From Peptococcaceae bacterium CEB3 (lineage in GTDB: Bacteria; Bacillota; Desulfitobacteriia; Desulfitobacteriales; Desulfitobacteriaceae), in the NCBI GenBank assembly GCA_001029295.1, contig LDXJ01000064.1:1-64000 (forward strand): a DNA stretch of 64,000 bases. The letters are read 5' to 3'. The position numbers were made by a program, and so were the translations under genes. The notes under the pieces were generated by a model, which was not told the DNA's origin, made no database searches, and saw only the letters and a list, made by a program, of their open reading frames with translations. Below are positions 13,030 to 59,475 of the stretch, in pieces. Each line of letters opens with the position of its first letter. Position 1 is the stretch's first letter.

Positions 13030-14178
13030 ATGCGATTTTTAACCGCGGGTGAGTCCCACGGACCCAAACTTATAGGAATCATCGAAGGGTTGCCTTCAGG
13101 AGTACATATTTCCCAAGAAACAATTGACGAGAGTTTGCGCCGCCGTCAGCAAGGTCCCGGCCGGGGGGGCCGCATGGCCATTGAACAGGATGCGGCTGTT
13201 ATCTTATCCGGGGTCAGGGGAGGATTGACCACAGGCGCGCCGCTGGCCTTGGAGATCGAGAATCGGGATTGGGCTAATTGGCGAGAGGTTATGGCGGTGG
13301 GGGCGGGGGCAGACCTCGCGAGCCGGCGGGTGACCGCGCCGAGGCCCGGACATGCCGATTTGACGGGGTCGCTGAAGTACCGGACGGAGGTTCGCAACAT
13401 TCTGGAAAGGGCGAGTGCCCGCGAGACGGCCATGCGGGTGGCCGTAGGGAATGTGGCAAGACAACTTCTGATTGCCCTGGGTGTGGAAGTCCGGGGGCGG
13501 GTTTTGCAGGTGGGCCGGGTTCAGGCCCAACTGCGGGATGATGACAAGTATTGGCAGCGGGTCCGAGGCTCCGCCTGGTCGGTGGGGGACGCGGAAGCTG
13601 AGGCGGAAATGGGCCGGCAATTGGAGGACGCCCGCCGGGAGGGGGAATCCCTGGGCGGGATCATGGAAGTCCAGGCCTTGAACTTTCCCGCGGGTCTTGG
13701 CTCCCATGTGCAGTGGGACCGAAAACTCGACGGGCGCATTGCCCAGGCTGTTTTGTCGGTGCAGGCCATTAAGGGAGTGGAGTTCGGCTTAGGATTTGAG
13801 GCCGGGCGGAGACCGGGATCCCTGGTCCACGATCCCATTCTCTATGAAGAGGGAAGAGGATTCCGACGGGGAAGCAACCGGGCAGGGGGAATCGAGGGCG
13901 GCATGAGCAACGGCGAACCGATCCTGCTGCGGGCCGTCATGAAACCGATTCCCACCCTTTACAAGCCTCTGCCGACGGTGGATTTAGAGACGAAAGAGGC
14001 GGTTAAGGCCAGCGTGGAACGGTCGGATGTCTGTGCCGTCCCCGCCGCCTTAGTAGTTTTGGAACATGTGCTGGCCTGGACCTTGGCAGAAGCAGTTCTG
14101 GAGAAGTTTCCGTCAGACAGTTTCTCCGAGTTACAGAAAAGTTGGCAGGAGTATAGCCGCTATTTAGAGTCTCAGTGA
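13030..14178 (+). CDS. aroC: Chorismate synthase
   Basis: Last step of the shikimate pathway: FMN-dependent conversion of EPSP to chorismate. Signatures seen are MRFLTAGESHGPKLIGIIEGLPSG at the start, RRQQGPGRGGRM, the segment RPGHADLTGSLKY, RASARETAMRVAVG, and GSNRAGGIEGGMSNGEPI. Length 382 is normal. The TGA stop at 14176-14178 coincides with the first bases of a TnpB-type transposon right end, so the insertion appears to supply the stop codon; only the very C-terminal residues can have changed. It is followed by aroB and terminates with it at 15518. Confidence 0.96.
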   Translation: MRFLTAGESHGPKLIGIIEGLPSGVHISQETIDESLRRRQQGPGRGGRMAIEQDAAVILSGVRGGLTTGAPLALEIENRDWANWREVMAVGAGADLASRRVTAPRPGHADLTGSLKYRTEVRNILERASARETAMRVAVGNVARQLLIALGVEVRGRVLQVGRVQAQLRDDDKYWQRVRGSAWSVGDAEAEAEMGRQLEDARREGESLGGIMEVQALNFPAGLGSHVQWDRKLDGRIAQAVLSVQAIKGVEFGLGFEAGRRPGSLVHDPILYEEGRGFRRGSNRAGGIEGGMSNGEPILLRAVMKPIPTLYKPLPTVDLETKEAVKASVERSDVCAVPAALVVLEHVLAWTLAEAVLEKFPSDSFSELQKSWQEYSRYLESQ

Positions 14179-14237
14179 CTTCCTCCCCGCGTTGAGACGC
14201 GAGGATGCCCAAGTCTCCCGAAGGAGCTTGGCAGGCC
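14176..14237 (-). mobile_element. Solo right end (omega-RNA-like) of a TnpB transposon between aroC and aroB
   Basis: On the minus strand these 62 bases match the right end of the TnpB element at 36429-36490 at 58 of 62 positions, including the hairpin with CGCGT and ACGCG arms. No tnpB and no left end are present here. The terminal TGA on the plus strand is the aroC stop codon. In TnpB elements this end encodes the guide-RNA scaffold, so a vestigial RNA could be made; that is inference. Confidence 0.85.
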
Positions 14238-14305
14238 AGATTCAGAAGCTCAGCCACCGGTTCGGCCGGCAAGCGAGCAGGAGGAACGAGAGAGGAAGAG
14301 GGAAG

Positions 14306-15397
14306 TTGAGCGTTTCCAACAGGCAAAAAATCGAGGTGTCCGCAAGCCATCCTTACCCGGTATTCCTGGGGGCGGATCTTGAGGAGCTGGGGGATTATCT
14401 GCTGTCCCGTTTTGGCAATATTGAGCATGTCTTAATCATTACTCAACCGGTGATAGCGGAACATTATGCTGAGAGGGTGAGGCAAGGTTTTAAAGGCTGC
14501 CGGGTCGACCTTGTGACGGTGCCCGCGGGCGAAGGGGAAAAATCCTTGACGAGGCTTAGCACCCTGGTCGGTGAAGCGGTCCGGCTGGGAGCGAACCGAC
14601 TGACTCTGGTCGTTGCCCTGGGCGGTGGAGTGATCGGTGATTTGGCCGGCTTTTTTGCCGGTATCTTCATGCGGGGAATCCGTTTCGTCCAGGTGCCCAC
14701 GACTCTTTTGGCTATGGTGGACAGCAGTATCGGCGGGAAAGTGGCGGTCAACCACCCGGCCGGGAAGAACTTGCTGGGTGCTTTTTATCCGCCCCTGGCA
14801 GTGTGGACGGATTTTTCCACATTGGCCACCCTTCCCTGGCAGGAAGTGCAAAACGGGCTGGCTGAGACCGTGAAGCACGCGGTTTTGGGCGACCGGGACC
14901 TGTTTGCTTTTTTGCAAGAACACCTTAATGAGATATTGGCCCGCGATCCTCTCATTTTCCGGGAGTTGACGGTTCGGTCCCTGGCTGTAAAAGTCAGGCT
15001 TGTGAGTCAGGATGAAAAGGAGCACGGGGTGCGGGCCCTACTTAACTTGGGGCACAGTTTCGGACACGCGTTGGAGACAGCGATGGCGTACGCCGGGATC
15101 TCCCATGGCAGGGGAGTGAGCGTAGGCTTAGTTGCAGCCTCCCGCCTGGCGGAGGAGAGAGGACTTATCTCTGCTGCCGAAGTCCAAGGTATCATGGATC
15201 TTCTCAGCGGACTGGGGCTGCCGATATCTGTCCGTGAGCAGGAGCCCGAGCGGCTGGTGCAACTGATGGCTGCCGACAAAAAGAATCGTTTTGGACGCAA
15301 GGTCCTGGTTCTGCCGCGGGGGATCGGTCAAGCCGTGCAGGTGGATGATTGCTCAGACGAAGATTTACTTCGGGTGTGGGCGGGGGTGATTGACTAA
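14306..15397 (+). CDS. aroB: 3-dehydroquinate synthase
   Basis: Second step of the shikimate pathway: NAD-dependent cyclisation of DAHP to 3-dehydroquinate. Motifs are the NAD-site GEGEKSLTRL and VVALGGGVIGDLAGFFAGIFMRGI, the segment VPTTLLAMVDSSIGGKVAVNHPAGKNLLGAF and the metal ligands in HSFGHALE with Glu and His elsewhere. The frame is open back to 14192, but that part is transposon remnant. TTG 14306 with AGAGGAAGAGGGAAG upstream begins just before the conserved domain and is chosen. About 363 residues. It follows aroC and ends before a strong terminator. Confidence 0.94.
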   Translation: MSVSNRQKIEVSASHPYPVFLGADLEELGDYLLSRFGNIEHVLIITQPVIAEHYAERVRQGFKGCRVDLVTVPAGEGEKSLTRLSTLVGEAVRLGANRLTLVVALGGGVIGDLAGFFAGIFMRGIRFVQVPTTLLAMVDSSIGGKVAVNHPAGKNLLGAFYPPLAVWTDFSTLATLPWQEVQNGLAETVKHAVLGDRDLFAFLQEHLNEILARDPLIFRELTVRSLAVKVRLVSQDEKEHGVRALLNLGHSFGHALETAMAYAGISHGRGVSVGLVAASRLAEERGLISAAEVQGIMDLLSGLGLPISVREQEPERLVQLMAADKKNRFGRKVLVLPRGIGQAVQVDDCSDEDLLRVWAGVID

Positions 15398-15430
15398 AAA
15401 GCTTTTGCGGTCTGGGGATCCACGCCTGAG

Positions 15431-15472
15431 GATCGTTTGCCACACCCTTAAGATCGTTTGCCACACCCTTAA
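15431..15472 (+). repeat. Perfect 21-bp direct repeat, two copies
   Basis: Two identical adjacent 21-bp copies beginning GATCGTTTGCC lie just after aroB and before its terminator. Perfect identity implies a recent duplication. Confidence 0.85.
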
Positions 15473-15517
15473 ATTGTAGGGACTGCTTAGACCCGGACAT
15501 AGGGAATCAGGGGTGGG

Positions 15518-15560
15518 GGAGAGCGGGAAGAAAGGACTTTCTTCGCACTCTCCTTTTTTT
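15518..15560 (+). terminator. Rho-independent terminator after aroB
   Basis: A 17-base arm (15518-15534) pairs almost fully with 15537-15553 across a 2-nt loop, followed by seven T. It ends the aroC-aroB transcript. The following 190 bases before the next prepilin hold no recognised signal. Confidence 0.85.
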
Positions 15561-15748
15561 CGCCGTTAAGCTGCACGAAGTGAGGGTGGGAGTTTGATTA
15601 GGTGCGAGCTGTGTCGGAAAGGAAGAATGTGGGAACAATATGGTAATATAGAAAGTTATGGAGAAGATCCTGTCGACCCAGCAGGAGAATCGAAGTTTGA
15701 AACCGAATAAACCGAATTAAGAAGACATTCAACAGGACGAGCGAAAAG

Positions 15749-16279
15749 ATGAGCGGAGGAGCGCAGTTTTTCTGTCGTGGTCCTTTGAAATCGGTCGGCG
15801 AAGAGAATATCTTAAAAGTCTTTGAGGAGAGGGGAGTGGAAGTCTGGTTTTGGGCTGTGAAGCGTGGGTCTTGGAAACCGAGAAAACCTCTGAGAAGCAG
15901 ACAGGACCCTCGAGAACAGGTCCCGTTGCGGGACGGGAGCGCCTGTTTAGCCTGGGAAAACAAGGGTTTTACGCTTTGGGAACTCCTGTTGGTTTTGGCT
16001 CTTATGGGATTTCTCACGGGCGCATTTGTTCCTCGTTTTACCTCGGCGTTGGTTCCTATTCAGAAACGGGCGCAAGAGGCCAACGCGCAGAAGGTTGAGG
16101 GGGCCCTGCAACTGTACAGATTGGATGTGGGCGCTTTGCCTGGGAATTTTGAGGACTTAATCAGGAGACCGGATGGAGTCAAAGGCTGGCAGGGGCCCTA
16201 TTTGAAGGAATGGCCTCTAAGCGGCCCGCCAACGGTTTATGCGTTTGATTCCTATGGCCGGGTGACGCTTTCCCAATGA
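15749..16279 (+). CDS. Prepilin-type protein, GspG-like (cluster B)
   Basis: Major-pseudopilin-like protein. Cleavage is predicted after WENKG, before FTLWELLLVLALMGFLTGAFVPRF with Glu5. The C-terminal part (ALQLYRLDVGALPGNFEDLIRRPDGVKGWQGPYLKEWPL, ending FDSYGRVTLSQ) is the GspG signature. From ATG 15749 the leader would be about 74 residues, which is abnormally long; TTG 15926 would give a normal 14-residue leader but has a weak ribosome site. The start is therefore uncertain. It overlaps the next gene by 4 bases (ATGA), so the GHIJK-like series is translationally coupled. Confidence 0.82.
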   Translation: MSGGAQFFCRGPLKSVGEENILKVFEERGVEVWFWAVKRGSWKPRKPLRSRQDPREQVPLRDGSACLAWENKGFTLWELLLVLALMGFLTGAFVPRFTSALVPIQKRAQEANAQKVEGALQLYRLDVGALPGNFEDLIRRPDGVKGWQGPYLKEWPLSGPPTVYAFDSYGRVTLSQ

Positions 16280-16707
16280 GCGGGGGCGGCAAGGGTCAGG
16301 GTTTTGTCCTGATGGACGTATTGCTGGCGGTTATGTTGTTCGGCCTGGGGTTTGCGGCGCTTTATGGTTTGTACGAGAGCTCCCTGGCGGAAGCCGCCGC
16401 GGCCGCGAATCTGACCGAGGCGGCTAATCTCGCCCAGAAAGGGATCGAGGATCTGCATGAGCGCAGTTGGCCGGAAAACTTCGCTCTGGAGAAGTGTCTG
16501 CCCGGCGGACGTGTCAGCGGGCAAGAGGGGCACTTTCAATGGAGTGTCGCCTCAGAATGGGGAGAACTGCCGGACGTTTTAGATGTCACTGTGGAGGTCC
16601 GCTGGTCTGAAGGGCGGACTGGGAAAAGCTATTACTTGCAGAGTATTTACTTTATCGAGAGAAGTCAGTCTGCAGACCAAGCGGCGATATCCTCGACCAA
16701 GGGGTAG
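16276..16707 (+). CDS. Prepilin-type protein, GspI-like (cluster B)
   Basis: Minor pseudopilin of 143 residues. A short leader MSGGGKGQG precedes FVLMDVLLAVMLFGLGFAALYGLYE. Position 5 is Asp instead of the near-universal Glu, an oddity that keeps the charge. The body (AANLTEAANLAQKGIEDLHERSWPE) resembles GspI/PilV. Its start overlaps the stop of the GspG-like gene. It probably forms part of the tip complex with the following J-like and K-like proteins. Confidence 0.8.
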   Translation: MSGGGKGQGFVLMDVLLAVMLFGLGFAALYGLYESSLAEAAAAANLTEAANLAQKGIEDLHERSWPENFALEKCLPGGRVSGQEGHFQWSVASEWGELPDVLDVTVEVRWSEGRTGKSYYLQSIYFIERSQSADQAAISSTKG

Positions 16708-16828
16708 GAACGGTCCACGTCTCGGCTGCCGGGCAAGGCAGCAAAGAGACGATACCCCTTGGGTTGGTCAAGGAAGGGCCGCTAAAGGTCCCTTGGGTAT
16801 ATTGGGTAATTGGGTATGAGGTTTCTAA

Positions 16829-17380
16829 GTGGACAAGTTAAAGCAACGGTGCCGGCTTTATAGACGGAGCGCAGGCCCGTCTGTATCGGGAAGGGGCTTC
16901 ACGGTCTCGGACGGGTTTACGCTCCTGGAGACGTTGGCAGCGCTTCTCATCAGCGGTATCCTGTTAGCCGTCGGCCTGCCGCTGTTAACCGGACAGTGGC
17001 GGGGAGAGGTTCGGGAAAAAAGGCAGCTGGAAGTCCTCTACAGTGTCATGAATGCGGGGCGGTGTGTGGCGGATGCTGTTCGCTCGGCGGCGGAGGTTGA
17101 ATTCAGCCGTTCCGGGGTGCTCAGGGTGCGTACCTGGGATGAAAAGGGCGTTTGTTCGGGGACGGACGAATACAGTGTCGCGGATCCGGACGGCGATGGT
17201 AACCCGGATCTTTACCACATGCACGACGGCGAGCTTAATCCTGTGGCGAGCAGAATCTCGGGGTTTCGGTGCAAGGAGGTTACGGAGAGAGTGTGGCAAG
17301 TGGAACTGGAGGCGAGCTGGGGAGACCAACGGGCGTTGTGGAGCACCCTTGTCTATCGCCGGGCCGATTCCGCCGAGTAA
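16829..17380 (+). CDS. Prepilin-type protein, GspJ-like (cluster B)
   Basis: Minor pseudopilin of 183 residues. A long leader (28 residues) ends at DG, before FTLLETLAALLISGILLAVGLPLL with Glu5. The stalk and beta domain follow. A DPDGDGNPDL segment (about 115-125) is an EF-hand or thrombospondin-3-like calcium loop; calcium sites are known in several pseudopilins, so a structural calcium is plausible. TTG 16829 is the open-frame start; its ribosome site is weak. The 120-base gap before it contains short repeats of the CTTGGGT and ATTGGGTA type. Confidence 0.78.
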   Translation: MDKLKQRCRLYRRSAGPSVSGRGFTVSDGFTLLETLAALLISGILLAVGLPLLTGQWRGEVREKRQLEVLYSVMNAGRCVADAVRSAAEVEFSRSGVLRVRTWDEKGVCSGTDEYSVADPDGDGNPDLYHMHDGELNPVASRISGFRCKEVTERVWQVELEASWGDQRALWSTLVYRRADSAE

Positions 17381-17823
17381 GGTTCCCCGGCGGGGCGAAT
17401 CTCTCCGGCGGAGTCCGTTCCGGGGCCGACGGAGGGTTTGCGACCCTGCTGGTCCTGGTCTTGCTTACTGCTCTGTTTCTGTACGGAGCGGAAGGTTACG
17501 TTAGGGCCAATGCGCAAAACCGTATGGCCCATAGAGAGGCCCAGAGCCGCCAAGCCGTCTATGCCGCGGAAGGAGGCATTGAGTGGGCAAAGGATGAACT
17601 CCTCCTCAACCCCGACTGGAAGGCAGGGCGACTGTCTCTCGACGGAGGAGAGGTGATAGTTGCGGCCGAGTTGAGTTCCGATTCCAAGGGGGGTTCCCAA
17701 GGGGGGGTATATCAGGTGACCTCGACGGCGCGAGTAGGCTGGGCAGAACGGAAAATATCCGTGGTTTTGAAAAGAAGTTCGGGGCGTTGGCTGGTTTTGT
17801 GCTATCGGGAAATACACCAATAA
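17338..17823 (+). CDS. PilX/GspK-like minor pilin (cluster B)
   Basis: Small minor pilin. The hydrophobic helix FATLLVLVLLTALFLYGAEGYV lacks Glu5, and it is followed by AQSRQAVYAAEGGIEWAKDELLLNP, the AEGG signature of PilX/GspK proteins. It overlaps the GspJ-like gene. The open frame runs from GTG 17269, but GTG 17338 gives a shorter leader; neither has a strong ribosome site, so translational coupling is likely. It is much shorter than true GspK, so PilX-like is the safer name. The gene for ATPase PilB2 begins 2 bases downstream. Confidence 0.72.
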   Translation: MEHPCLSPGRFRRVRFPGGANLSGGVRSGADGGFATLLVLVLLTALFLYGAEGYVRANAQNRMAHREAQSRQAVYAAEGGIEWAKDELLLNPDWKAGRLSLDGGEVIVAAELSSDSKGGSQGGVYQVTSTARVGWAERKISVVLKRSSGRWLVLCYREIHQ

Positions 17824-17824
17824 T

Positions 17825-19693
17825 ATGAAAGACAAGAGCGATAGAGCCGGCGGGGAAAGCCATTGGGAGTTTGGCCGGCACCTGTTGGCCCGCGGGCTGA
17901 TCGGAAAAGAGGACCTGGAAGCCGGCCTAGGTGTTTCGCGTGAGGACGGGGAACGAATAGGGGAAGTGCTGGTCCGTTTGGGTTTTCTCAGCAGGGAACA
18001 ATTGAATGAAGCCCTGAGCACGTATTTGAGGATTCCCCGTATTGAGTTGGCTCAGACCGAAATTGACCCGCAGGCCGCCCAGATGATTCCCGAAGATCTG
18101 GCCTGCCGCTACCGGGCGATCCCGCTCGCGCTGGAAAACAATGTCCTGCGGGTGGCGGTTGCCGATCCCACGTCGGTTGGGATACTGGATAACATCCGGC
18201 TTTTAACGGGATACGACACCGTACCGGTTCTGGCCGATGAAGCGGACATCTTAGCCGCGATTCGGCGGCATCTGACGGTCCGGCAGACGGTGGCCCAGCT
18301 GGAGACCCTGCAACAGGTGGTGGCGGAGTCGCCCGCGGAGTGGCCGCGCCAGGATAGCGGCGAACCTGGGCAGGATGCCCCCACCGTGCGCCTGGTGGAT
18401 TCCATCCTTCAGCAAGCGGCGGAAATGTCAGCGAGTGACATCCACTGGGAACCGCGGGAACAGTCGCTTTTGATCCGTTTTAGGCTGGACGGCCGGCTGT
18501 TGCCCAATTCGTCCCTCCCTTCGGCGCTGGCGCGCAATGTCCTCTCCCGCCTGAAAATGATGGCCGGAATGGATGTCGCGGAAAGACGTTTGCCCCAGGA
18601 TGGGCGTTTGGCGATAGAGGTTGGCCGGCGCCGCATTGATTTGCGCGTGTCGACTTTGCCTACTGTCTACGGGGAAAAAGCGGTTGTGCGAATTCTGGAC
18701 CCGCTGACTGCCCAGCGGACTCTGGGAGGGTTAGGGATGCGCCCGCAGGTTGAGCAAGGGCTGCGTTCCCTTCTGGAGCGGCCTCACGGCATGGTCCTGA
18801 TCACCGGACCGACTGGGAGCGGCAAGACGACGACCCTCTACGCTTTGGTGCGGGAGCTCCGGGCCGAGGCTTTCAACATTGTGTCGATCGAGGACCCGGT
18901 TGAATACCGCCTGCCGGGGGTGAACCAAGTGCAGGTGCACAGCAAGGTGGGCCTCACCTTTGCCGGCGGATTGAGGGCCATCCTGCGTCAAGACCCGGAC
19001 GTGATCATGGTGGGAGAAATACGGGACGAGGAGACGGCCGAAATTGCCGTACGCGCGGCTCTGACCGGGCATCTCGTGCTCTCCACCTTGCATACCAATA
19101 CGGCGGCGGAAGCGATTACGCGGCTTTTGGACATGAAGATAGAGCCTTACCTTTTGGCGGATGCTCTCGGCGGGGTCTTGTCCCAGCGTTTAGTCAGGGT
19201 TCTCTGCCCGGTTTGCAAGATCCTTCAGCCCACGGACGATGCCTTGAGTTGGCACGCCTTCTTCCCCGATTGCCCGCCGCGGACCTTTCGAGCCGTCGGT
19301 TGTCCGGAGTGTCTCGGCACGGGCTACAAAGGGAGGATTGGACTGCATGAATTCTTGCGCTATGATCAGGTTGTCAGAGAACTGATTTTGGAGCGCAAAG
19401 GTTCGCGGGCGATCGAAGAGGCGGCAATTCGCGCCGGTATGGTGACACTTCTGCAAGACGGGATGGAGAAGGTTAAGGAGGGTTTGACCACGGTGGAAGA
19501 AGTGTTCAGGGTGACTTTCGGAGGGCAGGATGAACGCTGTTCCTCGACAGGGGCAAGCGGAATGAGTGAGTATGGACCGTCTGGGAAGGGGCGGGATGAA
19601 CGCCGTTTCCCGGCGGGTGCGGATGAGGGATGTGCTCGGGAAGCGGGGGGATGTGCACGGAAGGCGGGAAGGGAGAGGACTGAGCAGATATGA
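17825..19693 (+). CDS. pilB: Type IV pilus assembly ATPase PilB/GspE (cluster B)
   Basis: Second extension ATPase, 622 residues. The N-terminal MshEN domain (about 15-150) precedes the ATPase core: Walker A GPTGSGKTTT near residue 328, DPVEYRLPG, Walker B VIMVGEIRDEET and TGHLVLSTLHTNT. The zinc motif is CPVC and CPEC. The last 50 or so residues (after VFRVTFGGQ) are a low-complexity Gly/Arg/Glu tail from degenerate repeats, not present in the cluster-A paralogue. It overlaps pilT by 4 bases. The paralogue at 1693 shares the architecture but differs clearly in sequence. Confidence 0.92.
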   Translation: MKDKSDRAGGESHWEFGRHLLARGLIGKEDLEAGLGVSREDGERIGEVLVRLGFLSREQLNEALSTYLRIPRIELAQTEIDPQAAQMIPEDLACRYRAIPLALENNVLRVAVADPTSVGILDNIRLLTGYDTVPVLADEADILAAIRRHLTVRQTVAQLETLQQVVAESPAEWPRQDSGEPGQDAPTVRLVDSILQQAAEMSASDIHWEPREQSLLIRFRLDGRLLPNSSLPSALARNVLSRLKMMAGMDVAERRLPQDGRLAIEVGRRRIDLRVSTLPTVYGEKAVVRILDPLTAQRTLGGLGMRPQVEQGLRSLLERPHGMVLITGPTGSGKTTTLYALVRELRAEAFNIVSIEDPVEYRLPGVNQVQVHSKVGLTFAGGLRAILRQDPDVIMVGEIRDEETAEIAVRAALTGHLVLSTLHTNTAAEAITRLLDMKIEPYLLADALGGVLSQRLVRVLCPVCKILQPTDDALSWHAFFPDCPPRTFRAVGCPECLGTGYKGRIGLHEFLRYDQVVRELILERKGSRAIEEAAIRAGMVTLLQDGMEKVKEGLTTVEEVFRVTFGGQDERCSSTGASGMSEYGPSGKGRDERRFPAGADEGCAREAGGCARKAGRERTEQI

Positions 19694-20748: not shown

Positions 20749-20797
20749 CCGGTACGGGATCGCGAGTGGCAGCGCGGGGCGACCACGGCCTAACACA

Positions 20798-20847
20798 ATT
20801 TCAGATTTGAGAAGATTTCAGGTTTGAGGGGGTCTCGGTTTGAGATG
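20798..20847 (+). repeat. 17-bp degenerate tandem repeat, 3 units
   Basis: Units of the form ATTTCAGGTTTGAGGGG repeat three times in the pilT-pilC gap. Confidence 0.6.
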
Positions 20848-20883
20848 TTTTAGCGGGATTTGCGAGGGAACGGTGGGGACAAG

Positions 20884-22083: not shown

Positions 22084-22084
22084 G

Positions 22085-22150
22085 AGAGGAAAGGTATACG
22101 TCAGAGAGCAGAGAGGTGTACGTGAGAGGACAGAGGTTTACGCCTAAACA
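22085..22150 (+). repeat. About 22-bp degenerate tandem repeat, 3 units
   Basis: The core AGAGGTGTACGT recurs about every 22 bases between pilC and the pilin gene, with increasing divergence rightward. Confidence 0.55.
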
Positions 22151-22191
22151 CGGCGGGTACGTTTAAGTTTTGAAGAAGAGAGGCGAGAACA

Positions 22192-23570: not shown

Positions 23571-23586
23571 GGAAGGGGGAAGCGGT

Positions 23587-34798: not shown

Positions 34799-35093
34799 GG
34801 CAATCCTCCCCACAACCGGGCTGACGAGACGGCAGAGAAAGTCGGGATTCTGTCAACAGAGGCATCTGCCGAACTGGGCCTTCGTCATCTGCCTGGGCGC
34901 TTATCAGCGGCTAGTCTTTATAGAACGTGCGCGGGAAAACCTCGGAATTCGATTCCGGGGATGAGAGCGCTTCCCCAAAGAATTTCAAACTATTGTCCTC
35001 CCTTTGTGGTAGAATATGGCCATGAACAGTCATCATAAGACACGACATGCAAAGGAAGAAGGCCAAGATCACTAGAGAGGGGGTGAAAAAGAA

Positions 35094-36395
35094 ATGTTTG
35101 CTGCTCAGAAAGTACGGATTAAAGGGCTTACGCAAGCAGAATATGAGATTCTGTGTCTGCTCCATCGGTATGCCAAAAACCTCTGCAATGTGGCGCTCTA
35201 TGCTCTGCGCCAGCACTTTTTTGCGACGGGAAAACTGCTGAGCTTCAATAAGCTCTACCATCAGTGTAAAACAAATGAGAACTACCACTTGCTCCAAGCC
35301 GGAGTCAGTCAGCAGAGCCTAAAGAGTGCGCATGGAAATATGAAATCGTTTCTGGCACTCAGCACAAAAGCGGCATTGGGACAATATCCAGCGGAGAAAG
35401 TGAAGATTCCCAAGTATCTACCCAAGGACGGCTATTCTCAACTTCTTTGTTCCACCAATGCGATCACTGTTCACGACGGCTATTTTCAGATACCCATGTC
35501 TAATCGGTTCATGCAGGAACATCCCGGCTTAACCATCAAAATTCGTGTACCGGATCGTATCGCGAATCGGCCCATCCGGGAAGCACGCCTAAACCCTCTC
35601 CACCAGGCTCGCTTCTTGGAAGCGGAGTTTGTGTACAAAACAGCGGATAAGGCCCAGCCTGTAGGGGAGCCGGAAACTTTAGCTCTGGATCTTGGGATAA
35701 ATACCCTGGCAGCCGGTATTAGTACCGCCGGAACCGCGTTTTTGATCGACGGGAAGCGGCTGAAATCAGTCAATCAATGGTACAACAAGGAACGCTCCAG
35801 GCTCCAATCAATGAAAGACCTGCAAGGGATCAAAGGCGAAACCAATAAACTGGCGTTGATAGCTTACAACCGGGAAAACTTCATGCGCGACTACCTGAGC
35901 AAAGCCGGTCACTTGATTTTGCAGCATTGCCTCGACAACAAAATCGGGCGGGTAGTTGTGGGTGTTAATCCCGGCTGGAAGCAAGCAATCAAGATCGGGC
36001 ATGTGAACAATCAAAACTTTGTGCAGATCCCCTTCTGGAAATTCCGGCGGTTTCTGGCGTACCTGTGTGAAAAGAACGGCATTGAATACGTAGAGATTAC
36101 GGAGAGCTATACTTCCAAGGCCAGCTTTCTGGACCGGGATCTATTGCCGGAATTCGACCCTGAGCATACAGAAAAGTACGTGTTCAGCGGTAAACGGGTA
36201 AAGCGGGGACTCTATCGCAGTGCAGATGGGCAAGCCGTAAACGCCGACTTAAACGGGGCGGCTAATATTCTGCGCAAAGCCTGTCCGGGAATTGACTTGT
36301 CACGGGTAAGCCACGCACTATGCCTAAATCCCATTATACTCTACCCTCTGGCAACAATCAAAAAGCGTACACTCAAAAGTAAAGCGGCGGCCTAA
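35094..36395 (+). CDS. tnpB: TnpB-family RNA-guided nuclease homologue with altered active-site motifs
   Basis: 433-residue OrfB/TnpB protein. The N-terminal helix-turn-helix and wedge-like regions are followed by the RuvC core: first Asp in LALDLGINTLA (about 200) and last Asp in VNADLNGAANIL (about 387). Where classical TnpB has the RuvC-II glutamate, this protein reads VVVGVNPGWKQ and then IEYVEITESYTSKASF. The zinc-ribbon cysteine pairs are also missing. This pattern belongs to a known branch of TnpB-like proteins; a Glu in VEITES may substitute. Cleavage competence is therefore uncertain. ATG 35094 has GAGAGGGGGTG upstream. Confidence 0.9.
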   Translation: MFAAQKVRIKGLTQAEYEILCLLHRYAKNLCNVALYALRQHFFATGKLLSFNKLYHQCKTNENYHLLQAGVSQQSLKSAHGNMKSFLALSTKAALGQYPAEKVKIPKYLPKDGYSQLLCSTNAITVHDGYFQIPMSNRFMQEHPGLTIKIRVPDRIANRPIREARLNPLHQARFLEAEFVYKTADKAQPVGEPETLALDLGINTLAAGISTAGTAFLIDGKRLKSVNQWYNKERSRLQSMKDLQGIKGETNKLALIAYNRENFMRDYLSKAGHLILQHCLDNKIGRVVVGVNPGWKQAIKIGHVNNQNFVQIPFWKFRRFLAYLCEKNGIEYVEITESYTSKASFLDRDLLPEFDPEHTEKYVFSGKRVKRGLYRSADGQAVNADLNGAANILRKACPGIDLSRVSHALCLNPIILYPLATIKKRTLKSKAAA

Positions 36396-36490
36396 CGGCG
36401 ACGGCGACCGCATAGAGGCCACTTGTACGGCCTGCCAAGCTCCTTCGGGGGACTTGGGGATTCTCGCGTTTCAACGCGGGGAGGAAGTCA
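36340..36490 (+). ncRNA. Candidate omega-RNA (guide scaffold) at the TnpB right end
   Basis: TnpB proteins use an RNA from the right end of the element, overlapping the end of tnpB. Here the last 62 bases are conserved in two other copies, with a hairpin TTCTCGCGTTTCAACGCG. The guide would be the sequence just outside the element. Limits are inferred. Confidence 0.4.
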
Positions 36491-36670
36491 AAGTGTACCA
36501 CGAAAGGGTGGTGCCTAGAAAGAGCGGGAGAAAATCAGAAGAATCCAAATCGGAAGAATCAAGAATCCCCCTGAGCGGGAAAGTGATCCGACCAAAGCGG
36601 GTCATCAAGAGAGTGGCAAGTCAGCCAATGGTTGTCCCGCCGGGCGGCCTCGCATACGTTCAGATATGCC

Positions 36671-50293: not shown

Positions 50294-50317
50294 GTGTAGG
50301 GTTTTGGGAGTAAGGTT

Positions 50318-50689: not shown

Positions 50690-50836
50690 AGGCACCCGGG
50701 CGGGGCGCCTGTTTTGCTGTGCTGAAATGTTGAAAATGGGTGTAATCGCTGGCGGGCCGGCGTGTCCGCGCGGAAAAGCCGCGTTGGGGGAAAAGGAATT
50801 GTTGAGGGAAAACGAATTACTGAAAGGAGAATCGGC

Positions 50837-52027: not shown

Positions 52028-52448
52028 GTTCAGATAGAAGCCCGTTCGCGGACGGCGGGAACGCAGAGGGCGCGGGTGGATTTGAACAAGTACGGGTTAG
52101 GGAGAGCTCCTGAATACACAGTGTAGAGGGTGCTGGCTGAGCTCAGGGAGCTCTCAGAAAGAAGTTCTGAGGGCTCTTCCTGTCGGGGGCCGCAGTTTCC
52201 CTCCGGCGGACGGGAGACCCGGGCGACGTTCGAGAAGGAAGGTTAGTGTGGAGAATGCCAGGGCCCGGATGGCCGCGCAGACCCGAGCAATAAATGAGCG
52301 GGCGGGGCCCGGCCGCGACGGCTGATGGCCCGAACGCAACGGAGACCCAGGCAAGCAATGAGCGGGTAGGGCGAGCGTGCTGTTCTGAGTATGATATCGC
52401 GCCGCGGATTTTCGTGAATGACAAGCGGGCGCGAGAGGGGGCAAATGG
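52028..52448 (+). other. Intergenic region between the flavodiiron and PatB genes
   Basis: No gene is supported. A hairpin (GAGCTCTCAGAA with TTCTGAGGGCTC, 52148-52176) followed by a weak T-rich run may terminate the flavodiiron transcript. Further on, two imperfect copies of a roughly 32-base segment containing CAATGAGCGGG lie about 65 bases apart. Confidence 0.45.
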
Positions 52449-53654: not shown

Positions 53655-53783
53655 AATAAGAACAGCTTTCACCCGACCGCTGCGAGAAGTAAGGCGGAAA
53701 GCGGGAGCAAGGTCGCCCCGGCACGATTTGCGGCCTTTGAGCCCGGCCGTTCCTGGGAAAAAGGAGAAGGGGCCCTAAGGCGG

Positions 53784-53867
53784 GATTTGACGTCAGGGCG
53801 GGCAGATTCGATATCAAGGTCGGCGGACCCGTTGTCAAGGCCGACGGATTCGCTGTCAGGGCCGGCG
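53784..53867 (+). repeat. 21-bp degenerate tandem repeat, 4 units
   Basis: Four 21-base units with core GTCAGGGCCGGCG lie immediately upstream of the second DHA2 exporter; the ribosome site follows directly. Confidence 0.8.
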
Positions 53868-53881
53868 AGAGGAGTGGAGAG

Positions 53882-55372
53882 TTGTTTAAGAGAGAAACGG
53901 TGAGGGTGTTTGTCCTGGTCAGCGTGATGCTGGCTATGTTCATGGCCGCGGTGGAAGGAACAATTGTGGCCACAGCCATGCCGAGCATCGTCGGGGACTT
54001 GGGCGGTTTTACCCTCTTCAGCTGGGTTTTTTCAGCCTTTCTCCTGGCACAAACCGTCACCATTCCTATTTACGGCAAGCTGGCCGACTTGTACGGCCGC
54101 AAGCCCGTCTTCGTCTTGGGTGCGGTGGTATTTCTAGCCGGCTCCACCCTCTGTGGGCTGGCGACCAGTATGAATCAGCTTATCCTTTACCGCTTGATCC
54201 AAGGATTGGGGGCGGGGGCGGTGCAGCCGATTGCCACCACGATAGTCGGAGACATTTACAATCTCGAGGAACGGGCTCAAGTCCAGGGTTACCTTTCGGG
54301 CGTCTGGGGCTTTGCCTCGATCATCGGTCCGGCCGTGGGCGGGCTGTTCGTGCAGTATGCTCGCTGGTCTTGGGTCTTTTGGATAAACATTCCTGTCGGG
54401 CTCCTATCCGCTTTGGGCATTATCCTCTTCTTCCGGGAAACTGTGGCCCAACGCGCACATAAGGTCGACTACCTCGGATCAGGATTGATCTTTGTGGCCA
54501 TCAGTGCCTTGATGGTGGTCTTGATCCAGGCCGGGACGGTCTGGTCCTGGGGATCGGCGCCTGTTCTGGGGCTTTCGGCGGTCTTCGTGGCGGGAAGTTT
54601 CCTTTTTGTCGTCAGGGAGAAAAAAGCGCCGGAGCCGGTTATGCCCTTGGAAATCTGGCACGACCGCTTGATTGCCGTGGCTAATTTGGCCTCTTTGACC
54701 ACGGGGATCGTGCTGGTCGGGATCGACACTTTCCTGCCGACTTTTGTCCAGGGCGTCATGAATAAAAGTCCTATTGTCGCCGGTTTTGCTTTAGCTGTGA
54801 TGTCCATAGGCTGGACTTTGTCCGCTACGGTGGCCGGACGCATGATTCTGCGGCTGGGTTATCGGAACACCGCTCTCAGCGGAGGTCTCTGGCTGGTCAT
54901 CGGGTCTGTTTTTTTTGTCACCCTTCAACCTGCTCGGGGATGGTTCTGGGCTGCCGGCGGTTCTTTCTTGGTCGGTGTGGGTATGGGCTTGGCGCGCACT
55001 GTCTTCATCGTGGCGGTTCAGAGCAGTGTGGCCTGGGAGATGCGCGGGGCGGCCACGGCGGCCAACATGTTCACCGGGATTTTGGGCAACACGGTGGGGG
55101 CCGCACTTCTGGGCGGGGTTCTCAATAACCGGATGACCGCATATCTCAGACATATTCCGGCGGGCAAGGGGGCGCCGCTCAACCTGGATGTTGTGAATTC
55201 CCTTTTGGATCCCCAGAAAAGGCAATCCCTGTCCACCGAAATGTTGCGAGTACTGCAGAGGGGTTTGACGATTTCTCTCCACACGGTTTACTGGGGGGTT
55301 ATGGTCCTGTCTTTCGCCAGTTTGGTCCTGATCTATTTCCTGCCCCGCTGGGTTAAGGAGGAAGGTGAATGA
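53882..55372 (+). CDS. MFS drug exporter, EmrB/QacA (DHA2) family, second copy
   Basis: 496 residues, 14 helices. It shows MAAVEGTIVATAMPSIVGDLGG in helix 1, GKLADLYGRKPVFVLG after helix 2, RLIQGLGAGAVQPIATTIVGDIY and GFASIIGPAVGGLFVQ (motif C). The N-terminus fits the subgroup that exports hydrophobic drugs or dyes. TTG 53882 has GAGGAGTGGAG upstream. Its 3' end overlaps the metallophosphoesterase by 8 bases, so the two are cotranscribed. It is not close to the exporter at 36735. Confidence 0.9.
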   Translation: MFKRETVRVFVLVSVMLAMFMAAVEGTIVATAMPSIVGDLGGFTLFSWVFSAFLLAQTVTIPIYGKLADLYGRKPVFVLGAVVFLAGSTLCGLATSMNQLILYRLIQGLGAGAVQPIATTIVGDIYNLEERAQVQGYLSGVWGFASIIGPAVGGLFVQYARWSWVFWINIPVGLLSALGIILFFRETVAQRAHKVDYLGSGLIFVAISALMVVLIQAGTVWSWGSAPVLGLSAVFVAGSFLFVVREKKAPEPVMPLEIWHDRLIAVANLASLTTGIVLVGIDTFLPTFVQGVMNKSPIVAGFALAVMSIGWTLSATVAGRMILRLGYRNTALSGGLWLVIGSVFFVTLQPARGWFWAAGGSFLVGVGMGLARTVFIVAVQSSVAWEMRGAATAANMFTGILGNTVGAALLGGVLNNRMTAYLRHIPAGKGAPLNLDVVNSLLDPQKRQSLSTEMLRVLQRGLTISLHTVYWGVMVLSFASLVLIYFLPRWVKEEGE

Positions 55373-56588
55373 GAGCTCTTCGCTTGGCAAGAGGGCGAGT
55401 CTTTCCGGTAAGGGGTGTGTGGAAGCCTTGAAAGGAATCAGATTGCTCCTCTATTCGGCCGCAGGCATCAGTTTCGCCTTATACGCGGGTCTTTGTTACT
55501 ACGTGGGCCTGCGCGGCTGGCAGTTCTTTTTCAGCTATCTTCCCCTGCTCCCGCCAACGGTCTATTGGATTGGTTTTTGGATAGTGGCTATGGCTTATTT
55601 GGCGGGCCGTTTGGGCGAAAGGGTTTTACCCGAGACGGTGGGTCACATTCTCAACGTGATCGGTTCTTATTGGTTGGGGATCATGTTCTATGCTCTCTTG
55701 GTGCTGGCCGCTGTGGACCTGATGCGCGGGTTGAATGATAAATTCCGCTTTTCACCTCATTTCCTGTCACGGGGGCCGTGGTTGGGGTGGGCAATTTTTC
55801 TCGTCCTGCTCGGACTGGTTCTCTACGGCCTGCGGAATGCCCGTCACCCGATCGTAAACCATTATAACCTGACTATCGGCAAAAAAGCCGGTAGCCTGGG
55901 AGAATTACACATAGTCCTCATCTCCGACATTCATTTGGGCGCGATTATGAATAACGGCCGTTTGGCTGAACTGGTGGAGAGCGTGAATGCTCTGAAGCCG
56001 GACCTGGTCCTCTTGGGCGGGGATGTGATCGATGAAAATGTGGAGCGGGTGATCCGGCAGGACATGCGGATGAACCTCAGCCGCTTGCAAGCTCCTTTCG
56101 GAGTCTACGCCGTGCTGGGCAATCATGAATATCTGGGCGGGCATGTGCGGGAGGCTCTGGCCTATATGGCTGAAGCCGGGGTGCATATGCTGCGCGATAG
56201 TTCGGTCAAAGTAGCCGACAGTTTTTACCTGGTGGGGCGGGATGACCGGAGCGCACGCCATTTTACCGGCCGCTTGCGCCGGCCCCTGGCGGATCTGCTC
56301 GAAGGCTTGGACCGCTCCTTGCCGGTGATCGTACTGGACCACCAGCCCAGTCATCTGGAAGAAGCGGAAAGGGCGGGTGTCGATCTTCAGCTTTCCGGTC
56401 ACACCCACAAGGGTCAGCTTTTCCCCATCCAGCTCCTTACCCGGCGCCTGTTTGCGGACGATTTCGGATTGCTGGAAAAAGACGATTTCCGAGTTATCGT
56501 TTCCTCCGGCTTTGGCACCTGGGGACCGCCTCTGCGGGTGGGGAACAGACCGGAGATCGTCGAAATTACCGTTCGTTTCGGGCCGTGA
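55365..56588 (+). CDS. Membrane-anchored metallophosphoesterase (YkuE/YaeI-like)
   Basis: 407 residues. Four helices in the first 170 residues precede a calcineurin-like domain: DIHLGAIMNN, LLGGDVIDENVERV, LGNHEYLGGH, HQPSHLEEA and SGHTHKGQLFP give the five metal-binding blocks. Relatives act on lipids or UDP-linked substrates at the membrane, but the substrate is not predictable. GTG 55365 overlaps the end of the exporter gene and has AAGGAGG just upstream. Confidence 0.9.
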   Translation: MNESSSLGKRASLSGKGCVEALKGIRLLLYSAAGISFALYAGLCYYVGLRGWQFFFSYLPLLPPTVYWIGFWIVAMAYLAGRLGERVLPETVGHILNVIGSYWLGIMFYALLVLAAVDLMRGLNDKFRFSPHFLSRGPWLGWAIFLVLLGLVLYGLRNARHPIVNHYNLTIGKKAGSLGELHIVLISDIHLGAIMNNGRLAELVESVNALKPDLVLLGGDVIDENVERVIRQDMRMNLSRLQAPFGVYAVLGNHEYLGGHVREALAYMAEAGVHMLRDSSVKVADSFYLVGRDDRSARHFTGRLRRPLADLLEGLDRSLPVIVLDHQPSHLEEAERAGVDLQLSGHTHKGQLFPIQLLTRRLFADDFGLLEKDDFRVIVSSGFGTWGPPLRVGNRPEIVEITVRFGP

Positions 56589-56778
56589 GCGTTGCGGACT
56601 GTCATCCTAACGATGGCCTTATTTATTGGCGGTGTTGGGGAAGCGAAGTCTTAATCGTTAAGTTTAGAGTTCGGGTTGGTTTGCTGAGGTGAACCGGGGC
56701 CTATGTTGATCGAGTGGGAGCAGAGCGTTGGCGCCGTTTACAGGAGGCTCAGTTTTGGCTAAAATATTGTCGGGAGCG

Positions 56779-56804
56779 GGCTTTTCCAACGAAAGAGCCT
56801 TTTT
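56779..56804 (+). terminator. Terminator-like hairpin just upstream of htpG
   Basis: GGCTTTTC pairs with GAAAGAGCC (one bulge), followed by T5. It lies only 30 bases before htpG, so it could end the previous transcript or act as an attenuator. Confidence 0.5.
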
Positions 56805-56836
56805 AATTAAAAATCAGAAGTGAGGGGTTATTGACC

Positions 56837-58684
56837 ATGAGTACCGGTGTCGAAACGAAAGAATTTCAAACGGAAATCCGGCAGTTGCTGGATATTGTCA
56901 TCAATTCGCTCTACACAGATAAGGAGATTTTCCTGCGCGAGCTTATATCCAACGCCGCGGACGCCATGGAAAAAGTACGTTACCTTCAACTCACAGGGGC
57001 TGACGTCAAGGATGGGGATCTACCCCTGGAAATCACCCTGACGGCGGAAGAGGAGACCCATACTTTAACCGTTGCCGACCCCGGAATCGGTATGACCCGG
57101 GAGGAACTGGTGGAAAATCTGGGGACCATTGCCCATTCCGGTTCCAAAGAATTTATCAAACGCCTGGCGGAAGGAACTCAGGATTTTAAGCTGATTGGCC
57201 AGTTCGGGGTGGGATTTTATTCGGCTTTCATGGTGGCCGACAAAGTAGAGCTTTACACCCGCTCCTATCGTCCCGAGGCCGGGGGTTGCCTCTGGATTTC
57301 TGACGGCAGCGGCAGTTATACGGTTGAGGACGCCCCCGACTTGGCGCGGGGCACCAAAATCATCCTGCACCTGAAAGAAGATGCCCGGGATTTTGCCAAG
57401 GAAGAGACCCTGAAAAGAATCGTTAAGCAGTATTCCGGGTTTGTGCCCTATCCAGTTCTCCTCAACGGCCAAAAGGTAAACACGGTTCAAGCCCTCTGGA
57501 CCAAGAACAAAAATGAGATTACGGATGAAGAGTACAACGAATTCTATAAGTACGTCGCTGATGCCTATGATGAGCCTCTCTTTCGGCTGCACTTCGCTTC
57601 CGATGCTCCCATCTCTTTACAATCCCTCTTATTTGTCCCCAAGGAAAACTTTGAGCATTGGGGGTTCGGCCGCTTGGACCCGGGGGTCAACCTTTACTGC
57701 AAAAAGGTGCTTATCCAAGAACAGTCCAAAGATATCCTGCCTGAGTGGATGCGCTTTGTCAAAGGGGTAATTGACAGCGAGGAACTTCCGCTCAATATTT
57801 CCCGGGAAACCATGCAGGACAGCGCTTTGGTTCAGAAGATCAACAAAGCCGTTACCAGCCGCTTCCTTAAATTTTTGGACGAACAGGCTAAGTCGGAACC
57901 GGAAAAGTACAAGGAGTTCTACGACAAATTCGGGGTCTTCATTAAGGAAGGGGCGGCCAACGATTTCGGCCACCGCAATGAACTGGTCAAGCTGCTGCGC
58001 TTTGAGTCTATGAAAACGGAGGCAGGCAAATTCATCTCCCTCTCAGATTACATTCAGAACATGGCCGAAGGGCAAAAAGCCGTCTATTATGTCAACGGCC
58101 CCAGCCGGGAGGTCATCGAAGCGGGCCCTTACTTGGAAGTCTTCCGCAGCAAAGGTCTGGATGTCATCTACACGCGTGAGGCGATTGAGGATTACGTCTT
58201 AAGTCTTATGGGTGAATTTGAAGGGAAGAAACTGATTTCGGCCGATCAAGCGGAACTCGATCTCGACCTGCCGGATCAGGAACAGAAGGCCGAGGGGGAA
58301 GGGAGCTTGAGTGAGGAAGCGCTCAACGCGCTCACGGCCTGGCTGAAAGAAGTTTTGGCCAGTAAGGTGACGGAAGTTCGCGTTTCCAAGCGTTTGGCGG
58401 ACAGCCCGGCCATCGTGCTCAGTCCTTACGGAACCTATAGTATGCAGCGTATGATGCAGCTTGTGAACCGGGATTTGAACCAAGCGGGTCCCGCAATTCT
58501 GGAGATCAATCGGAACCATCCGCTGATTAAACGCCTTCAGACCCTGCATGAGCAGAACGATCCTTTCGCTCAAACCGCGGCGGAACAGATCTTCGAAAAT
58601 GCCAGGATCGCGGCGGGTCTGATCGTCGATCCGCGCGAGATGGTGAACAGGTTGTACGAGATCCTGGAGCGGGCTCTCAAATGA
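56837..58684 (+). CDS. htpG: HSP90-family chaperone HtpG
   Basis: About 615-residue cytoplasmic ATP-dependent chaperone. GHKL ATPase motifs are ELISNAADAMEKVR, DPGIGMTREEL, LGTIAHSGSKEF and IGQFGVGFYSAFMVAD; the middle domain has NISRETMQ and the C-terminal dimerisation domain is complete. ATG 56837 with GAGGGG upstream is chosen over TTG 56831. The 248-base gap upstream has no CIRCE element that I can see. Confidence 0.97.
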   Translation: MSTGVETKEFQTEIRQLLDIVINSLYTDKEIFLRELISNAADAMEKVRYLQLTGADVKDGDLPLEITLTAEEETHTLTVADPGIGMTREELVENLGTIAHSGSKEFIKRLAEGTQDFKLIGQFGVGFYSAFMVADKVELYTRSYRPEAGGCLWISDGSGSYTVEDAPDLARGTKIILHLKEDARDFAKEETLKRIVKQYSGFVPYPVLLNGQKVNTVQALWTKNKNEITDEEYNEFYKYVADAYDEPLFRLHFASDAPISLQSLLFVPKENFEHWGFGRLDPGVNLYCKKVLIQEQSKDILPEWMRFVKGVIDSEELPLNISRETMQDSALVQKINKAVTSRFLKFLDEQAKSEPEKYKEFYDKFGVFIKEGAANDFGHRNELVKLLRFESMKTEAGKFISLSDYIQNMAEGQKAVYYVNGPSREVIEAGPYLEVFRSKGLDVIYTREAIEDYVLSLMGEFEGKKLISADQAELDLDLPDQEQKAEGEGSLSEEALNALTAWLKEVLASKVTEVRVSKRLADSPAIVLSPYGTYSMQRMMQLVNRDLNQAGPAILEINRNHPLIKRLQTLHEQNDPFAQTAAEQIFENARIAAGLIVDPREMVNRLYEILERALK

Positions 58685-58716
58685 CGATTTAAAAATTTAC
58701 CGTTTGCCTTTTTAAA

Positions 58717-58757
58717 TTGCACATTGTTATTGCACTTGATACAATAACAATGTGCAA
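58717..58757 (+). promoter_or_regulatory. 16-bp inverted repeat and promoter overlap ahead of mazEF
   Basis: TTGCACATTGTTATTG and its exact complement flank a 9-base spacer. A TTGCAC hexamer inside it is 17 bases from TGCAAT. This fits an operator for the ribbon-helix-helix antitoxin (autorepression), or a stem at the 5' end of the transcript. Confidence 0.65.
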
Positions 58758-58787
58758 TATTAGTTTCCGGCAAAGGAGTGGGGCTGA

Positions 58788-59060
58788 ATGGGCGCCAAAC
58801 TAAAAAACGTCACCTTTTCTCTCCCGGTGGAACTCATTCATAAGCTGAAAGGGTATGCTCAGGAAGAGTACATTCCCTCAGTCAATGCCGGCGTCAGAGA
58901 AGCTATCGAAGAGTATGTGACAAAGCTTGAAAAAGAAAAACTCTATCGCGAAATGTTGAAAGCCGCTGATGATCCTTTATTCGTCAGAGATTTAGCTGAG
59001 AATATGCAGGCTTTTGAGGCCTCTGACAGAGAGCCTCTGGGGCGGGAGGAGGAATGGTAG
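58788..59060 (+). CDS. Ribbon-helix-helix antitoxin (MazE-like)
   Basis: 90 residues. The N-terminus KLKNVTFSLPVELIHKLKGYAQEEYIPSVNAGVREAIEEYVTKLEKEKL is a ribbon-helix-helix DNA-binding module; the C-terminal acidic tail (AADDPLFVRDLAENMQAFEASDREPL) is the likely toxin-binding part. The ATG follows AAAGGAGTGGGG. It overlaps the toxin gene by 7 bases. It probably binds the inverted repeat at 58717. Confidence 0.85.
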   Translation: MGAKLKNVTFSLPVELIHKLKGYAQEEYIPSVNAGVREAIEEYVTKLEKEKLYREMLKAADDPLFVRDLAENMQAFEASDREPLGREEEW

Positions 59061-59401
59061 ATTATCAGTGGGGGGTTTTCTGGGCGAACTTGGACCCAGC
59101 CAGGGGATCGGAGCAAGCGGGAGTGCGTCCGGTTTTGGTCGTGTCAGTCGAAGAAGTTAACAAGGTATTGCCAGTTCTGACGGTCCTTTCTTTGACATCC
59201 CTGAAAGAGGGCAGAAAAATCTACCCTGTCGAGGTGTTCCTACCGGCGTCTGAGACGGGACTGCCCAGAGACTCCATAGCGATGGCCTATCAAATACGTT
59301 CGATAGCCAAAAGCAGACTGGGGGAAAAGTGCGGAGCGATCGTTTCAGCAAGTCTGCGAGAGCAGATAAGATCGGCTGTTAAGCTTTACCTGGACTTATA
59401 G
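59054..59401 (+). CDS. MazF/PemK-type endoribonuclease toxin
   Basis: 115 residues with the MazF fold: WGVFWANLDPARGSEQAGVRPVLVVS has the Arg and Gly of the active-site loop (DPARGSEQ), LTVLSLTS and PRDSIAMAYQIRSIAKSRL give the rest. The enzyme cleaves mRNA at short sequences. Its TAG stop (59399-59401) is formed partly by the first bases of a 76-bp TnpB-derived mini-element, so the last residues may differ from the ancestral toxin. It follows the antitoxin with overlap. Confidence 0.92.
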   Translation: MVDYQWGVFWANLDPARGSEQAGVRPVLVVSVEEVNKVLPVLTVLSLTSLKEGRKIYPVEVFLPASETGLPRDSIAMAYQIRSIAKSRLGEKCGAIVSASLREQIRSAVKLYLDL

Positions 59402-59475
59402 AACGTGCGCGCATTCAGTAGGAGCTGAGTGCTGGAACTTGGGAATTCTCGCGTTTCAACGCGAGGAGGAAGTCA
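59400..59475 (+). mobile_element. 76-bp mini-element carrying both ends of the TnpB transposon
   Basis: TTAT plus AGAACGTGCGCG (left end) is followed after about 24 bases by 42 bases that match the right end of the 34922-36490 element with about three differences, including the CGCGTTTCAACGCG hairpin and GAGGAAGTCA terminus. It has no coding capacity. It behaves like a non-autonomous (MITE-like) derivative inserted after a TTAT target, within the last codon of mazF. Confidence 0.85.

Follow-up and report, generated by a model that had tools for sequence, protein, structure and literature searches.

The 64,000-nucleotide stretch of DNA analyzed here (hereafter the window) is part of contig C64 in the 5.3-Mb genome of Peptococcaceae bacterium CEB3, an acid-loving sulfate-reducing bacterium. 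It carries an IS605-type transposon with a tnpB gene, and the ends of this transposon recur without transposase at the stop codons of aroC and mazF. We found that when members of this family insert at the end of a gene, the terminal bases of the element replace the stop codon that the insertion destroys, and one stop codon is thereby exchanged for another at the same position. We consider it quite likely that a single IS605-type family, moved by a Y1 transposase to positions directly 3' of TTAT, has made such stop-for-stop exchanges in this genome, and that the inserted copies have since decayed. In the mechanism that we propose, insertions at stop codons would be nearly neutral and insertions within coding sequences would be lost, and the copies at stop codons would persist long enough to shrink to bare right ends or to core-deleted miniature elements.

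The exchange can be followed letter by letter. The TTAT-bearing strand of the element is read as ATAA by a gene on the opposite strand. Given a gene that ends in NNA TAA, an antisense insertion before ATAA would bring in TTGA, the reverse complement of the terminal TCAA of the element, and the gene would then end in NNT TGA. In the sense orientation, TTA TAA or TTA TAG would become TTA TAG through the AG of the left end. In either orientation the position of the stop, and with it the length of the protein, would be preserved, with a change in the final residue at most. This rule can be read in the copies that retain both ends. The best proof, at the level of sequence, is aroF of G029, another genome of the same order, where a copy of 1,910 bp, carrying Y1 tnpA and tnpB (both identified with Pfam), lies on the stop codon; the gene ends in TTT TGA with the element and in CAA TTA TAA after its removal. 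Taking out the ahcY copy of Acididesulfobacillus acetoxydans in silico leaves GAA TAA, with TTAT as the target, and ahcY of the window's genome ends in GAT TGA with its element and in GAA TGA without it, the target there being TCAT. The two bases 3' of the mazF unit are also AG (TTAT followed by AGGG), so that its excision leaves an identical TAG and the gene ends in TTA TAG again. The cfa gene agrees with the rule, as the predicted CAA TAA is present in relatives. For aroC and orr, which no longer have a left end, we infer a similar origin, on the assumption of either an NNA TAA ancestor or a TTAC-like target.

We examined the three window sites that had given rise to the original prediction, and most of its sequence readings were confirmed. 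The right end at 36429-36490 recurs on the opposite strand at 14176-14237 (58 of 62 bases), positions 59434-59475 match 36449-36490 at 39 of 42 bases, and the left ends at 34918-34933 and 59396-59411 are identical, each consisting of TTAT followed by AGAACGTGCGCG. The TGA stop of aroC is made of right-end bases, and the TAG stop of mazF is the last T of TTAT plus the AG of the left end, both as first described. The copy at mazF had been called a 76-bp mini-element; the joining of its two ends was confirmed, but the terminal TCAA makes the unit 77 bp long and likewise sets the limits of the larger element at 34922-36491. The aroC copy ends in C (GTCAC rather than GTCAA), so that only TGA is shared with the consensus end. 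The right-end motif has five matches in the window at up to three mismatches, compared with 0.97 expected, and none of 100 shuffles reached five. The left-end motif has two matches, both exact, compared with 0.23 expected at the same tolerance, and 2 of 100 shuffles gave as many. Given that the mazF unit lacks the left hairpin, it is more likely to be a deletion product than a mobile mini-element.

Comparison with related genomes indicates where these genes ended before insertion. The only same-genus genome among those searched (G001) appears to be that of A. acetoxydans (NZ_LR746496.1), whose AroC is 91% identical. In all five cases in which a copy overlaps a stop codon in the window's genome, the nearest element-free relative ends the gene at the same codon. 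The cfa gene ends in CAA TAA in A. acetoxydans and in genomes G003 and G011, and in CAT TGA here. The aroC gene ends in CAG TAA in A. acetoxydans and in CAG TGA here, with coding sequences that can be aligned up to the stop and spacers that differ beyond it. For orr, the corresponding ends are GTC TAA in A. acetoxydans (82%) and ATT TGA here. The ahcY gene ends in GCG TAA, with no element, in G003 and G011, compared with GAT TGA here. The best mazF homolog (G038, 62%) ends in GAT TTA TAA, and mazF in the window ends in GAC TTA TAG. Judged by these nearest relatives, it appears that no element moved any of the five gene ends and that stop was exchanged for stop. Stops at the same position in element-free relatives had been named beforehand as evidence against the original prediction, yet they are what a stop-for-stop exchange predicts. 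The ahcY insertion (loci L382 and L155) occurs both here and in A. acetoxydans, with the terminal hairpin retained in each, and is therefore probably older than the divergence of the two species. The junction in A. acetoxydans reads GAA TAA, and its junction base encodes the native last residue, as may also be the case in aroC here. Later base changes could restore the native last residue in this way, and such restoration may reflect selection.

To place these cases in context, we took a census of right ends across the genome, in which similarity searches and pattern searches (two of each) were combined with a reading of the loci. The census comprises 31 copies, 11 beside a TnpB match and 20 without one; several of the 31 are short remnants of roughly 20-45 bases. 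Dropped before counting were a pattern match inside an open reading frame (ORF) of 607 amino acids (C56:63900), matches belonging to the GGATGTCAA family, and left ends located at the edge of a contig, where the corresponding right end may already be among the counted copies. A stop codon is overlapped by five copies, those at cfa, aroC, ahcY, orr and mazF; all five are among the 20 without TnpB, compared with 0 of the 11 with TnpB (Fisher P 0.13). The proteins encoded by the five genes were named with Pfam and NCBIfam. Among the left ends listed, an ORF of 70 or more amino acids that ends in TTA TAG occurs at mazF alone. The earlier statement that two of two orphan copies terminate a host gene therefore reflects a sampling effect, and we rejected the general claim that every orphan copy terminates a gene, the genome-wide figure being 5 of 31.

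We then asked how often stop codons would be hit given the sites available. Of the non-coding TTAT sites, 1.4-2.2% are antisense stop sites in the right frame; for TTAY the share is 1.7-3.0%. Against this expectation of 1.4-3%, 4 of the 31 copies are antisense stop hits (P 0.0008 to 0.014, or 0.041 at the TTAC-only rate). The background rate was obtained with a simple purpose-built gene finder at four settings over 305 kb, a nonrandom sample made up of the window and stretches around element copies. This finder counted no sense-strand TTAT stop site though mazF is one, so its sense rate should be read as a minimum. At six of six independent loci, a gene running into a right end does so in the TGA frame, compared with one in three expected for random cuts (P 0.0014). 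These loci are cfa, aroC, ahcY, orr, aroF of G029 and a candidate at ddl, with the shared ahcY copy counted once; without the ddl candidate the result is five of five (P 0.004). Genes were required to have at least 100 amino acids and a coding score above 10, a threshold of our own choosing. A 134-amino-acid ORF in another frame (L151, position 6576, score 12.4) was set aside because only the last bases of the end match there, with no hairpin, and it is not among the 31 copies. Four ORFs of 81-108 amino acids that run into right ends matched nothing in Pfam at E values up to 0.1 and were not counted as genes. The original proposal that element ends provide host genes with in-frame stops is borne out, at a frequency somewhat above that given by the sites available. 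The over-representation of stops among insertion sites is modest, and it is weaker without the two loci first reported.

The ddl candidate, which encodes D-alanine--D-alanine ligase, has its TGA stop within 16 exact right-end bases (G000:C64:546798-546815, L390). There is no clear further element sequence at this gene end, which lies outside the 31 copies and is counted in the frame comparison; it is a possible sixth case.

Several observations weigh against the reading that we favor. Most copies, 26 of the 31, do not lie on stops. When the two originally reported loci are removed, the antisense count falls to 3 of 29, with P between 0.007 and 0.057, or 0.12 when the TTAC-only rate, the highest background rate, is used. 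The left end is lost or degraded at aroC, cfa and orr, so that TTAT is reconstructed there, and relatives have G or C rather than A ahead of TAA in aroC and orr, so that an NNA TAA ancestor has to be assumed. Distant relatives end orr at least one codon later (G003, G009, G011, G014, G015 and G019), and the ends of ahcY and cfa likewise vary among distant relatives. A second IS605-like right end (GCGGGGAGGATGTCAA), searched for in 299 genomes, gave matches in 8 of them at 23 loci, four of these in the window's own genome. At the 19 loci in the seven other genomes, no ORF of more than 11 codons runs in the TGA frame, and three of these foreign loci have ORFs of 191-328 amino acids in other frames; ORF length was used there because the coding score, trained on the window's genome, is unfit for foreign genes. 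In the window's own genome, one of the four loci of this second family has a 121-amino-acid ORF in the TGA frame, with a score of -6.6. Finally, the sulfide-quinone reductase (SQR) of genome G015 ends a few residues past the point where the alignment with solved homologs stops, with about 30 residues of these homologs left over, and may be a truncation.

Two further observations concern the wider distribution. The SQR gene just mentioned (L394, G015:C277) stops at the TGA of a right end, in the TGA frame. Within the order, 18 of 73 genomes, the window's own included, had matches at up to two mismatches, mostly one or two each, and many of these matches may not be elements.

The alternative that survives best is chance, by which copies land randomly at TTAT and a few happen to fall on stops. 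This is possible, if clearly the less probable account. It fits the large majority of copies that lie elsewhere and the P values obtained without the two prompting loci. It fits less well with the antisense excess over the expected rate, with the use of the TGA frame by all six coding genes, or with the additional sense case (mazF) and the independent copy in G029. The exchange itself is a fact of the sequence under chance too, and only the excess is at stake. The original prediction had selection tolerating only those insertions that end a frame: tolerance stands as the likeliest reason, but "only" does not, given the copies that lie off stops.

It is also conceivable, though unlikely, that the right-end hairpin has been retained as a 3' mRNA structure of the host gene, as proposed for repetitive extragenic palindromic sequences (REPs) near stops. 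In each of the four antisense stop copies the left end is degraded or gone but the terminal hairpin can still be recognized, and a lowering of translation has been reported for REPs located within 15 nt of a stop (PMC12306157, as far as the text available to us goes, which holds for all sources cited here by PMC number). On the gene strand, however, there is no T run 3' of the hairpin, and hence no classical terminator, and the hairpin is kept off stops too, 20 of the 22 aligned copies not being on stops. Very unlikely, in our view, is the suggestion that the solo right ends yield guide RNAs for the intact TnpB, an argument by analogy with ISDra2, whose guide RNA derives from the 3' end of tnpB plus the right end (PMC8612924). 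An alignment of 22 of the 31 copies does fold into several stems, of which the terminal one is kept nearly throughout; the aroC copy, however, has only 62 bp of right end, with GAAT changed to GCAT and TCAA to TCAC, and the 77-bp mazF unit is without the outer stem. That the elements shorten genes and provide a new end, as the original prediction implied, is hardly credible and, as far as the nearest relatives tell, already refuted for the five loci: the stop bases do lie inside the element, and the SQR of G015 may be an example, but we rejected new gene ends by truncation since in five of five cases the gene ends of the nearest relatives fall on the same codon. In addition, seven genes each match one or more NCBIfam profiles up to the last 4 positions or closer (ddl, aroF, orr, ahcY, aroC, mazF and cfa; some of these matches score below the model cut-off and were used for extent only).

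Judged from its sequence, the family responsible for the stop-for-stop exchange is an IS605-type transposon with Y1 tnpA and tnpB, the target TTAT, AG at its 5' end and TCAA at its 3' end. The left end reads AGAAC directly after TTAT and the right end reads GTCAA, and tnpA and tnpB lie between these ends in two copies (C55:123239-125151 and C31:7582-9494). Pfam identified Y1 (HUH) TnpA, PF01797, in both of these and in the G029 copy. Genome-wide there are 20 TnpB matches and 7 Y1 transposase matches, counting fragments, and the TnpB set also includes distant ones. Y1 TnpA, TnpB, insertion at a fixed tetranucleotide without target duplication, and subterminal hairpins were all found, as expected for the IS605 group of the IS200/IS605 family. 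TTAT precedes 12 of the 12 two-ended copies listed from this genome, a count biased by a left-end search pattern that itself contained TTAT; the G029 copy and the A. acetoxydans ahcY copy also have it. GAAT stands directly ahead of the terminal hairpin in most right ends and is altered in a few, including the TnpB copy of the window (GGAT), and AAAA stands ahead of the left-end hairpin; both are candidate guide tetranucleotides assigned by position only. The terminal right hairpin is conserved across the 22 aligned copies, and the right end reads GGAGGAAGTCAA in 15 of them and a close variant in the remaining ones; the alignment omits nine copies that are short or divergent, including those at ahcY, orr and mazF. 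Transposase-free units with both ends measure 56, 76, 77 and 100 bp. The coordinates of the features are collected in the table.

Features of the window and stop codons overlapped by right-end copies (positions without a contig refer to the window)
Feature	Position	Strand or orientation	Support or comparison
cfa stop	C37:9472	antisense to element	
aroC stop	C64:14175	antisense to element	
ahcY stop	C56:74186	antisense to element	
orr stop	C50:25081	antisense to element	
mazF stop	window	sense to element	
aroC, chorismate synthase, 382 amino acids	13030..14178	+	PF01264; NCBIfam to profile position 386/390 and 344/344
Right-end remnant at aroC end, left end lost	14176..14237	-	
aroC stop TGA from right-end bases	14176..14178	+	A. 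acetoxydans: CAG TAA, same codon, no element
TTAT target, left of the window's two-ended element	34918..34921	+	sequence read
IS605-type element, both ends and tnpB; tnpA cut down to a start fragment	34922..36491	+	
AAAA, candidate left guide	34936..34939	+	position only
Left subterminal hairpin	34940..34960	+	layout compared with IS608
tnpA start remnant; KTRH common to G029 tnpA	35016..35060	+	by-eye reading only
TnpB, 433 amino acids	35094..36395	+	PF01385, PF07282; NCBIfam NF040570
Right end: stem-loops, GAAT-type guide position (here GGAT), terminal TCAA	36429..36491	+	
mazF-like toxin gene of type II toxin-antitoxin pair, 115 amino acids	59054..59401	+	PF02452
TTAT target, last T opens stop codon	59396..59399	+	
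mazF stop TAG	59399..59401	+	best homolog, 62% identical: TTA TAA, same codon, no element
Core-deleted element, 77 bp: 12 bp of left end fused to right end; left hairpin missing	59400..59476	+	

Other copies of the family vary in ways that we record separately. Eight loci (L150, L151, L153, L156, L157, L380, L384 and L395) have a longer, different hairpin (CCAGCACTCAG...CTGAGTGCTGG or close variants) in place of the middle stem of the right end, and retain the terminal hairpin. A second TnpB, 65% identical to that of the window, occurs as two equal-scoring copies (G000:C52:482-1741 and 109600-110859) near both ends of that one contig. Three elements without a TnpB match (L144, L145 and L146, at G000:C37:39767-40051, C43:19513-19815 and C37 about 9232-9472) have in common a promoter-like stretch, about 90 bases not seen in the TnpB copies, and the right-end scaffold, and may be stand-alone guide-RNA elements. 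Rfam gave no match at the gathering score in six loci, the L144-L146 elements among those checked. In a region with twelve tRNA genes (L148, G000:C36), a right-end remnant at 3106-3183 abuts the first base of a tRNA-Gly gene (3184-3258), another neat boundary with no gene damage.

The stop-for-stop exchange would give a simple rule, open to checking, for how a common type of bacterial transposon can insert harmlessly into essential genes, its ends replacing the stop that it destroys. Such a rule predicts where old IS605 and TnpB elements survive, and it can account for single-residue and stop-codon differences between related genomes. It also carries a warning for annotation, in that a gene may truly end at a TGA located within an IS605 end. 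The rule can be checked directly in IS608 and similar elements. IS608 has TCAA as its right cleavage site, GAAT as its right guide, TTAC as its target and AAAG as its left guide (PMC5934647). The family described here shares with IS608 and the IS605 group the Y1 tnpA and tnpB genes, TCAA, GAAT, insertion 3' of a tetranucleotide and subterminal hairpins, but has TTAT in place of TTAC and AAAA in place of AAAG. The sequence layout therefore corresponds to the IS605 group, except that target and guide, the left pair, have changed together. For IS608, the rule would turn NNG TAA into NNT TGA. The available part of the IS608 source makes no mention of stop-codon exchange. It is distinctly unlikely that the TTAT or TTAC target and the terminal AG and TCAA of the IS605 group owe their combination to selection for insertions that do no damage at stop codons, with the exchange serving as a general survival strategy that includes IS608.

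Three other systems bear comparison. The palindrome-associated transposable elements (PATEs) of Haloquadratum are core-deleted IS605-type elements, in one of which a 1500-bp element has been reduced to a 52-bp pair of ends (PMC3119063). Like them, the copies described here lack inverted repeats and have near-terminal palindromes, core deletions, and fused ends free of transposase. They differ from PATEs in their bacterial host, in having their own TnpB lineage, and in forming 56- and 77-bp units without the left hairpin. QMITE2 of Coxiella burnetii, a miniature inverted-repeat transposable element, lengthens one protein by 33 residues (PMC5896051). It too is inserted at the 3' end of a gene with the stop at or near the element, but no stop-for-stop exchange is described in the part of that report available. 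Among the matches listed from the open-access literature, no title or opening of an abstract announced an IS605-type stop-for-stop exchange. The nearest prior report, as far as its available text goes, is that of GTAG REPs, which are tied to RAYT (Y1) transposases and whose termini often give a TAG stop to flanking genes (PMC3733652). The provision of stops to adjacent genes by element termini is thus common to both systems. No GTAG tag was seen at the foot of the palindrome on reading the 22 aligned right ends. The family described here differs from GTAG REPs in that its ends are of IS605 type and its stop is either the TGA of the right end or a TAG formed by the target and the left end. What seems to be new is an exact exchange rule for an IS605-type element, in which the stop codon present before insertion is known both from relatives and from a copy that retains its two ends.

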